From positions 1 to 34,815 of the IMG/VR virus record IMGVR_UViG_3300007354_000011: 34,815 bases of DNA; one strand, written 5' to 3'. Position numbers and translations under genes: made by a program. The first letter of the stretch is position 1. Every line of letters begins with the position of its first letter. The DNA comes from a virus. Below, one piece after another: positions 27,576 through 29,078 of the stretch. The notes below the pieces were generated by a model. That model was not told where the DNA came from. It did no database searches and was given only the letters and a program-made list of their open reading frames with translations.

Positions 27576-28433
27576 TCAGAGTCTAAATCGATCTACTGGC
27601 GATGCCCGCCGATGTGCATCATCTATATCCACTTGTGCCAGTTGCAAATAATGTGAGACCATTTGCATTGTTGAATGGCCAAGGATTTGCTGTAACGTAT
27701 AGGGATCTCCCCCATTGCGCAAGTAATAGACCGCAAATGTATGGCGAAAACGATGTGGGTAAACACCTTTTACGCCAGATTTTTTACCAATGTAAACCAG
27801 TAAATGAGTAAGAGACAAACGAGTAATATCAAATAGTCGCTGGTGATTTGAATCATCCTTTCTTATAACTATACGAAACAACGCCGAGGCAGTACGGGGG
27901 CTAACTGGAATATAGCGTTCTTTATTCCCCTTCCCCATCACTCTTATGCGACGAGCACGCAGATCAATATCATCGTATGTCAATTGGATTAATTCCGAGG
28001 CGCGTATTCCTGTATCCAACAATAATAACAATATTGCACGATTGCGATAATATTTCCGCCCCACCACAGAAAATAATGCCCGAATTTCAGTTTCTGTAAA
28101 TGGAATGATCGCCTTTTTTTGTGGCTTTGGACGTGGCACTTGACGCACAATATGACGTTGCACGTAATTCTCTCGCATTAACCATGTCCATAATGCTGAG
28201 AGCGCAATATGTTTATTGAGCAATGATTTAGGTTGCAACTCAGTATATTGAGCTAAATAGAATACTATATGATGACTTTGAATTTCCTTAGCGGGCAAAT
28301 CTCCAGTAGTTTGTAAGAAGCTGCGCAAAGTGCGTGAATAATCATCAATTGTATGCCGAGATAGTTGACGTGCTTTGCATTCGAGAAGAAAACCTTCAAT
28401 AGCTTGAGATAATCTTATTAACCGTGTGCTCAT
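27576..28433 (-). CDS. int: Tyrosine recombinase integrase
   Basis: The 285-residue protein has an N-terminal SAM-like core-binding domain (about 5-95) and a catalytic domain with the full active site. R144 lies in TGIRASEL, K171 or K168 in the beta hairpin, H227-xx-R230 in PHRFRHTFA, H253 in LGHST and Y262 in SHYLQL. There is no long arm-binding domain, so the protein looks XerD-like in size. It should integrate and excise the phage at the tRNA-Leu-derived attP 70 bp upstream. No ribosome site is evident before ATG 28433. It reads leftward, the same way as the repressor across attP. Confidence 0.93.
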   Translation of the reverse strand: MSTRLIRLSQAIEGFLLECKARQLSRHTIDDYSRTLRSFLQTTGDLPAKEIQSHHIVFYLAQYTELQPKSLLNKHIALSALWTWLMRENYVQRHIVRQVPRPKPQKKAIIPFTETEIRALFSVVGRKYYRNRAILLLLLDTGIRASELIQLTYDDIDLRARRIRVMGKGNKERYIPVSPRTASALFRIVIRKDDSNHQRLFDITRLSLTHLLVYIGKKSGVKGVYPHRFRHTFAVYYLRNGGDPYTLQQILGHSTMQMVSHYLQLAQVDIDDAHRRASPVDRFRL

Positions 28434-28458
28434 AACTGGACAGGATTTAAAAGATGCA

Positions 28459-28635
28459 GCACATGGTCAAACGATATTGATAACCATGTGCCAACAGAAT
28501 GCGCTGGGTGGGAGTTGAACCCACACGCCTTTCGGCACATGGCCCTCAACCGAGAGGGGGAAATTTCGCAGTTTTGGGCACATGGCTATAGAATTTTATG
28601 AATCTATGTTACTGATTTGAATGAAACCATGTTAC
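28459..28635. promoter_or_regulatory. attP: attP region with repeated arm-type sites
   Basis: Four copies of GCACATGG flank and overlap the tRNA-like core. They are at 28459-28466 (+), 28483-28492 (as ACCATGTGCC, minus), 28534-28543 (+, inside the core) and 28577-28586 (+). ATGTTAC occurs twice further right (about 28605 and 28629). Repeats of this kind around a tRNA fragment beside the integrase gene fit binding sites for integrase or an accessory factor. The exact exchange point cannot be seen without the host sequence. Confidence 0.75.
28500..28551 (-). tRNA. 3' half of tRNA-Leu(GAG): attP identity segment, not a full gene
   Basis: Read on the minus strand from 28551, the sequence gives the anticodon loop TTGAGGG (anticodon GAG), the 3' anticodon strand, and a long variable arm TGCCGAAAGGCGT. 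A T arm (GTGGG-TTCAACT-CCCAC) and an acceptor strand with discriminator A (CCAGCGCA) follow. The 5' half is absent: upstream bases (CCCCCTCTC) do not pair with the anticodon or acceptor strands. Phages that integrate in tRNA genes carry such a 3' part to restore the gene. Confidence 0.85.
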
Positions 28636-28658
28636 ATAGACAACATAGAACACACGTT

Positions 28659-29078
28659 CTATCTGTCTTTTAAGACACTGCGAGCCGGGGGCTTTTCCCG
28701 GCTCTTTTGAATTTTGACTTTCTGCCGTTCTACTTCAAATAGCAATAACTCCAGATAACGCTTTTGCTCTTCTAGTGGCAATTGGCGCAGGAGATAAAGG
28801 ATTTGCTCTTCATACTCAGTATCAGGGGGGGCGGGGGGTAGTAGGCCGGCGGCACGGAACACAGTTTCAGCAGACAAATTCAGTCCACGAGCTATCGCAA
28901 TAAGTGTTTCGGGTTCTGGGTTTCTCTCATTGGATAAAATTCTACTTATTACTGCTGGAGCTTTATTGGAAGCTCTTGCCAATTCAGCAATAGTCATATC
29001 TTTTAATCTTAATTGATTTGCCAGCCATTCAGAAAACTTTACCATTTGGTAATACTTTAACATATTTGAAATTGACAT
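28659..29078 (-). CDS. HTH (Cro/CI, XRE-family) repressor
   Basis: The protein of up to 139 residues has an HTH_3 domain (about 18-72: MTIAELARASNKAPAVISRI and ETLIAIARGLNLS) and a helical charged C-terminus (EEQILYLLRQLPLEEQKRYLE). It lacks a LexA-type peptidase domain, so induction must not depend on RecA autocleavage of this protein. Three starts are possible (29078, 29063, 29045), none with a ribosome site. ATG 29045 fits the usual domain border and lies inside the palindrome TTACCAAATGGTAA, suggesting a leaderless, autoregulated message. It faces the early operon and should hold lysogeny. Confidence 0.87.
   Translation of the reverse strand: MSISNMLKYYQMVKFSEWLANQLRLKDMTIAELARASNKAPAVISRILSNERNPEPETLIAIARGLNLSAETVFRAAGLLPPAPPDTEYEEQILYLLRQLPLEEQKRYLELLLFEVERQKVKIQKSREKPPARSVLKDR
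28682..28708 (+). terminator. Rightward terminator hairpin embedded in the repressor gene end
   Basis: GAGCCGGG (28682-28689) pairs perfectly with CCCGGCTC (28697-28704) and is followed on the + strand by TTTT and a T-rich stretch. It lies antisense within the last repressor codons. It could stop rightward transcription from the attP side, or from host DNA after integration, before it reaches the immunity region. Coding constraint makes chance less likely but does not exclude it. Confidence 0.55.

Follow-up and report, generated by a model that had tools for sequence, protein, structure and literature searches.

The window analysed here is the complete IMG/VR record IMGVR_UViG_3300007354_000011 (34,815 bases), which can be assigned to a tailed phage on the basis of its terminase, portal and capsid-like matches. 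A putative phage attachment site (attP) lies between the integrase gene int (27576-28433, minus strand) and an HTH repressor-like gene (28659-29078, minus strand), with two small DNA-binding genes (HTH and RHH) in its neighbourhood. A terminator-like hairpin is present on the plus strand at 28682-28704, within the end of the minus-strand HTH gene. Elsewhere in the window, the protein encoded at 13223-14716 matches PHROG 13692 (E 5.5e-125), a PHROG without a given function, as well as major capsid/head proteins of Arthrobacter and Alicyclobacillus phages, and is closest to Brevundimonas phages (44%).

The product of int is a tyrosine integrase of 285 amino acids, in which Pfam places a SAM-like core-binding domain (PF02899/PF13495) at residues 13-90 and the catalytic domain (PF00589) at residues 113-266, while in the AF2 model (mean pLDDT 89.5) the four-helix core-binding bundle already begins at residue 8. 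This arrangement leaves no space for an arm-binding domain, and a lambda-like N-terminal domain of that kind was sought with both methods and is absent. The integrase is therefore without an arm-binding domain, in agreement with the preliminary description of this DNA, and consists of core-binding and catalytic domains only, like the simple tyrosine recombinases of Smyshlyaev et al. (2021). The nearest solved structures by sequence are XerC-like, XerA, XerD and gp33 of 5vfz; the fold search labels 5vfz as Brujita integrase and also aligns lambda Int (75-356) and Tn1549 Int (82-397), whose aligned structures were solved without the first 74 and 81 residues, respectively.

The tRNA-Leu(GAG) core and its hosts

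Based on the alignment to host loci, the attP core is the 3' half of a tRNA-Leu(GAG), 52 nt long (28500-28551, minus strand). It comprises the C' core half-site CCATGTGCCG (28533-28542, minus strand), which corresponds to the variable region together with the 3' strand of the anticodon stem and is identical in the host, and the presumed 7-bp overlap TTGAGGG (28543-28549, minus strand), which is the anticodon loop; the cleavage points are inferred, and host identity ends two bases beyond. On the other side of the overlap lies a degenerate C half-site, CTCTCGG (28550-28556, minus strand), in place of the GGCATGG found in the host. ARAGORN found no complete tRNA in the window, as expected if the site is an attP, and Rfam gave no real match at this locus.

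The preliminary description had proposed the core as a direct host probe, and it served well as one. A 24-base core pattern, running from the anticodon loop to the variable arm, was searched in genome_contigs and matched 34 stretches, all of which (34/34) contain a tRNA-Leu(GAG) gene. Every one of them is titled Chloroflexota/Chloroflexi or as a named member, and wherever the title is finer than the phylum it points to Anaerolineales (Bellilinea was placed there by a lineage check, and the remaining named genera we take to belong there as well). In these hosts the anticodon arm reads GGCATGG-TTGAGGG-CCATGTGCC, and the match between phage and host extends from the GG just 5' of the loop through the tRNA 3' end. 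All 52 nt are identical in nine of the 34 loci (L092, L097, L100, L101, L102, L109, L114, L117 and L121), which upholds the earlier assignment of an attP to this tRNA; in L092 (JAGVAD010000032.1) the identity reaches 28495 (57 nt in total), and in L115, where the contig end cuts the tRNA, the 44 nt available are all identical. L114 and L115 are two contigs of one genome (DYEC01), each ending within tRNA-Leu(GAG) and with slightly different 5' halves; the gene may be present twice in this genome, or the assembly may have broken at a site that is occupied.

Since the identity runs from the GG and the loop to the 3' end, and the anticodon stem is lost on the other side of the phage site, the crossover would most likely take place in the 7-base anticodon loop, a position that fits the classical tRNA sites, as far as these are covered in the accessible part of a review (PMC8371274). 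A block of identity that extends from the loop as far as the 3' end of the tRNA is the mark of an integrase with its attB in the anticodon arm, and such a block is present here. The same host tRNAs also settle the status of the GCACATGG copy that had been described as an arm site inside the core: it does lie there, but CCATGTGC is present in the host tRNAs themselves (34/34 loci, by the search pattern used), where it makes up the C' core half-site, composed of the 3' strand of the anticodon stem and the bases that open the variable region. For this reason we rejected the idea that the phage had placed an arm site in the tRNA.

The alignments of the host loci to the window stop at the tRNA and a few bases behind it, without any integrated copy of this phage, and an exact pattern of the phage left side plus core had no match in viral_contigs. 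The search for prophages, suggested in the preliminary description, was nevertheless productive in a relative. The sister prophage L161, whose integrase is the closest to that of the window by tree (59% identity over 182 columns, shared clade 100/99), sits behind a complete tRNA-Leu(GAG), and its junction is, as judged from the sequence, an attL of the predicted kind and at the predicted place. Past the tRNA end, L161 has sites at 6 (minus, CTATGTGCTG), 33 (plus, CTATGTGCCG) and 79 (minus, CCATGTGCTG); those of the window are at 7 (minus), 34 (plus) and 69 (minus).

Half-site copies and the target tRNA

The preliminary description had also reported four copies of GCACATGG, in both orientations, around the tRNA fragment. 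These are indeed the only exact ones on both strands of the 34,815 bases: 28459-28466 (plus), 28484-28491 (minus), 28535-28542 (plus) and 28578-28585 (plus). Their number alone is unremarkable (shuffle mean 1.97, with four reached in 16 of 100 shuffles), and with one mismatch allowed GGCACATGG occurs 11 times in the window versus 9.99 expected. Their clustering within 127 bp, on the other hand, has p ~2e-7 for four random positions (analytic; 0 of 2,000,000 simulated).

Relatives of the integrase were collected from genomes and viral contigs. Matches at <=1e-20 are found in 21 of 32 host genomes and at <=1e-25 in 89 of 301 genomes of the order. Among viral contigs, the integrase alone retrieved just one weak relative, whereas an alignment query found 220, of which 80 were kept. 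Many relatives lie directly 3' of a complete same-strand tRNA, and the targets include Pro-GGG, Pro-CGG, Val-TAC, Val-CAC, Gly-TCC, Gly-CCC, Met-CAT, Arg-CCG, Arg-TCT and Leu-GAG; on a tree of 58 integrases, the target label switches at least 16 times.

For each locus, the half-sites C and C' were taken as the 10 bases read outward from the anticodon loop, copies were counted as matches of at least 8/10 in the interval from the end of the tRNA to about codon 20 of int, and the null was obtained by permuting the tRNAs among loci (20,000 permutations). For the discovery set 65 loci (39 + 26) were examined and 32 were used together with the window, loci without a complete same-strand tRNA upstream being excluded and L086 dropped as lying on the same contig as L090. 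The new set comprised 40 fetched loci (25 used, 15 excluded) and the viral set 80, of which 62 have a T-arm upstream, 10 have none and 8 have too little upstream sequence. Loci with similar arms were then removed, leaving 26, 20 and 42 (discovery, new and combined sets) and 47 or 48 (viral set). In L160, the tRNA reported by ARAGORN resembles an attP fragment and not a whole tRNA.

The copies change along with the target. The 15 representative loci examined first have 30 copies of their own half-sites, versus a permuted mean of 7.5 (maximum 24), and 13 of the 15 loci have at least one. The 26 non-redundant discovery loci have 40 sites versus 11.1 permuted (maximum 28), with at least one copy in 20; the 20 newly fetched ones have 33 versus 11.65 (maximum 30), with at least one in 16. 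Combined, a copy is present in 35 of 42 non-redundant loci, representing 19 of 22 distinct half-sites, and the remaining seven loci have no copy at 8/10. When successive 10-mers along the tRNA are scanned, the matches peak exactly at C' (58 matches, 30/42 loci), with a lower peak on the 5' strand (27 matches, 17/42 loci) and only 1-12 matches for 10-mers at least 4 bases from the edge of the stem, including those of the T-arm. When scored against shuffled arms, the best single site of many loci is weak; the case is carried by counts, positions and the tRNA permutation, and not by single-site scores.

The layout is also fixed. The int side has a first copy, oriented away from C', whose start is 3-9 or 13-17 nt beyond the end of the tRNA (two spacing classes about one helical turn apart), and a second copy, oriented like C', whose start is 27 or 28 nt after that of the first; a third copy is found further on, often at the int start. 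The inverted pair at 27/28 nt (both sites at least 7/10) is present in 24 of 42 loci versus 5.45 permuted (maximum 14) and is missing in the other 18, of which L083, L148 and L160 have strong copies elsewhere. The pair is oriented like a core, with a spacer of 17-18 nt versus 7. The expected positions hold 40 sites of at least 8/10, versus 6 after a 5-bp slide in either direction and 1 with the orientation flipped, while 10-bp slides keep 17-21 sites because the two classes are 10 bp apart; the position windows of the permutation test on the discovery and new sets were based on the 15-locus set, but coded after the new set had been seen.

On the P side of the viral attP loci (n = 48, window included), sites of at least 7/10 occur at -26 (plus) in 18 loci, at -53 (minus) in 9 and at -77, -78 and -79 (minus) in 5 each, the level for dissimilar half-sites at these positions being 1-5%. 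At 8/10 or better, 47 viral loci have 45 sites in the named positions versus 25.5 permuted (maximum 42), with P-side positions that were picked from the same loci. A C-like half-site beside the loop is kept in 7 of the 48 viral loci, which may be integrated copies. The sequences of the copies, their positions and their change with the target tRNA are thus observed directly in the family.

The window fits this layout at six positions. On the int side, P'1 (CCATGTGCCA, 9/10; 28484-28493, plus strand) faces opposite to the C' direction at +7, and P'2 (CCATGTGCTG, 9/10; 28457-28466, minus strand) lies in the C' direction at +34; the spacer of the inverted pair (28467-28483) has 17 nt, ten above the 7-nt core overlap. 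The weak copy P'3 (7/10; 28422-28431, plus strand) at +69 covers int codons 1-4, and its counterpart is the third site of L161 (79, minus). On the P side, P1 (CCATGTGCCC, 9/10; 28576-28585, minus strand) is 26 nt from the overlap, the position common to 18 of the 48 viral loci, and is followed by two weak copies, P2 (CTATGTTACT, 6/10; 28604-28613, plus strand) at 54 nt, near the family position -53, and P3 (CCATGTTACA, 7/10; 28627-28636, plus strand) at 77 nt. Judged by these scores, the core, with its degenerate C side, is surrounded by an array of six sites, of which the three outer GCACATGG copies are the strong ones. The preliminary description was right in placing copies on both flanks of the core, but its separate arm motif does not stand, since the outer copies are copies of the C' half-site.

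A proposed role for the copies and its alternatives

We consider it quite probable that the locus serves as attP for a temperate phage that infects Anaerolineales (Chloroflexota) and targets the anticodon arm of tRNA-Leu(GAG), and that the half-site copies are bound by extra integrase protomers via the core-binding surface. In this mechanism, the phage would supply a complete tRNA 3' half, restoring the host tRNA and leaving int directly downstream, as is seen in the sister prophage L161 and may be expected for this phage. Integrase protomers would use one and the same surface to bind C' and the outer copies, building an ordered higher-order complex on attP that would compensate for the degenerate C side and make attP differ from attB; the latter, a bare but complete dyad, would then be captured by the attP complex. 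Additionally, the copy over the int start would let the integrase turn down its own gene after integration. Since the copies change with the target tRNA in the relatives, the sites are likely to be read by the core-binding and catalytic domains of the integrase itself. Binding, assembly or cooperation, and a role in the direction of recombination are all inferred here from sequence patterns. We also lean, less firmly, towards the more general proposal that this clade of arm-less integrases builds its own arms, consisting of up to six core half-site copies at fixed positions on both sides, with an inverted pseudo-core that, by about one helical turn, would be too wide for recombination, and that the array is rewritten at each move to another tRNA. 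If true, such self-built arms would be a way of controlling direction without an arm-binding domain.

The copies could alternatively be operators only, bound by the integrase to shut off int once the phage has integrated, and without a role in a recombination complex. In the window and in several relatives the int start is overlapped by a copy, and negative autoregulation through attL has been shown for KplE1 intS (accessible text of PMC2951348). Nevertheless, the P-side copies (-26, -53, -77) are separated from int by integration and yet have fixed positions, and the constant spacing and the helical-turn classes are easier to reconcile with a complex than with a simple operator; we judge operators alone to be unlikely, while an operator role can hold in addition to the complex. 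A little less likely still is that the copies are read by a protein other than the integrase, such as a directionality factor, a host factor or one of the HTH and RHH products. Lambda-like systems employ extra proteins on their arms and two small DNA-binding genes are close by, but, as the copies follow the anticodon stem, such a protein would need to track the integrase specificity at every target change. Moreover, GCACATGG is absent from the HTH-RHH gap, the expected place of a repressor operator, and the copies were rejected as repressor operators on this ground.

A further alternative is that the inverted pair is an RNA element (a terminator or a tRNA antisense) and matches the tRNA for RNA reasons; in its favour, the tRNA-Met group has its first copy in a terminator-like hairpin that follows the tRNA. 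This seems very improbable, given that the P-side copies are outside any tRNA-int transcript, that both orientations occur with fixed helical spacing, and that no terminator was found at the pair in the window. Chance or base composition, to which the ordinary count of four exact copies and the one-mismatch count would point, is hardly credible in view of the 127-bp cluster and the family-wide permutation, position and 10-mer tests, and we regard it as already refuted.

The proposed integrase-bound array has partial parallels in known systems, and by its sequence the locus carries extra sites resembling the core half-site, as attI1-like and irs-like sites do. In the integron site attI1, IntI1 binds the direct repeats DR1 and DR2 beside the core (PMC8946536, accessible part). 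Both systems lack an arm-binding domain and have extra sites beside the core (integrase-bound in attI1) and a site adjoining the integrase gene; however, the two direct repeats of attI1 are confined to one side and its partner in recombination is attC, whereas the phage array lies at a tRNA, flanks the core on both sides and comprises as many as six copies, which are mostly inverted and change with the target. The irs of Tn4430 and Tn5401, in the portion of PMC7157771 available, has a core (IR1-IR2) and the TnpI sites DR1 and DR2 just upstream of the recombinase's own gene, whose expression is also modulated by TnpI binding. TnpI is likewise a tyrosine recombinase with extra core-type sites near its own gene, but it resolves transposon cointegrates, has no tRNA target and has its sites on one side.

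The integrase of mycobacteriophage Brujita is similarly arm-less and is the fold match 5vfz. It is reported to work without arm-type sites or a directionality factor, the attP of such systems lying inside the repressor gene (accessible text of PMC7194413); here, in contrast, the core (28500-28551) and all proposed sites (28422-28636) are outside the HTH ORF (28659-29078), and conserved half-site copies are found on both sides of the core. As in lambda, attP has sites on both arms and int beside it, and tRNA targets are common in the wider class, but in lambda a separate N-terminal domain reads the arm sites (PMC8138268, in part); this phage integrase lacks such a domain, and its arm sites copy the core half-site. 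In the available portion of their paper (PMC8138268), Smyshlyaev et al. count 27 phages with simple recombinases versus 410 with arm-binding domains. The arm-binding domain is presented as the step that lets tyrosine recombinases drive mobile elements, and direction in arm-less systems as a conundrum (PMC8138268; PMC6109161, both in part).

The literature within reach of our search, which draws mainly on journals open without subscription and on many sources in part, contained neither a conserved two-sided array of core sites that changes with the target tRNA nor an arm-less phage integrase described with such an array. Extra recombinase sites beside the core are already known (attI1, irs), and what appears to be new is a target-tracking, two-sided array in arm-less phage integrases. 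With arm-like sites that are copies of the core half-site, the question of direction becomes testable with one purified protein and mutated sites. The copy rule also lets a predicted target tRNA be checked against the arms in Anaerolineales phages, and the family offers dozens of natural integrase-target pairs for studying specificity change.

Relatives with other arrangements

In six relatives (L150, L151, L152, L182, L202 and L207) the integrase is preceded by a tRNA-Met 3' half only, beginning exactly at the anticodon loop, and these look like tandem or displaced elements displaying the P side. On the P side of L207, a copy that matches at all 10/10 positions lies 25 nt before the loop; a 7/10 copy is at the same place in L151, L152, L182 and L202, and there is none in L150.

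A second arrangement, with the integrase upstream of a tRNA 3' fragment, is found in L125-L128, L156 and L162-L164, where the fragment is mostly Pro-CGG (Leu-GAG in L156). These eight relatives are nearly free of copies (one site of at least 8/10 in L126 and one in L156), and the array would therefore be dispensable for some arm-less integrases of this kind. In L125 and L127, the tRNA fragment is followed on its 3' side by repeated pieces of the tRNA acceptor end, each trailed by the same sequence, a pattern suggestive of successive insertions of several elements at the site.
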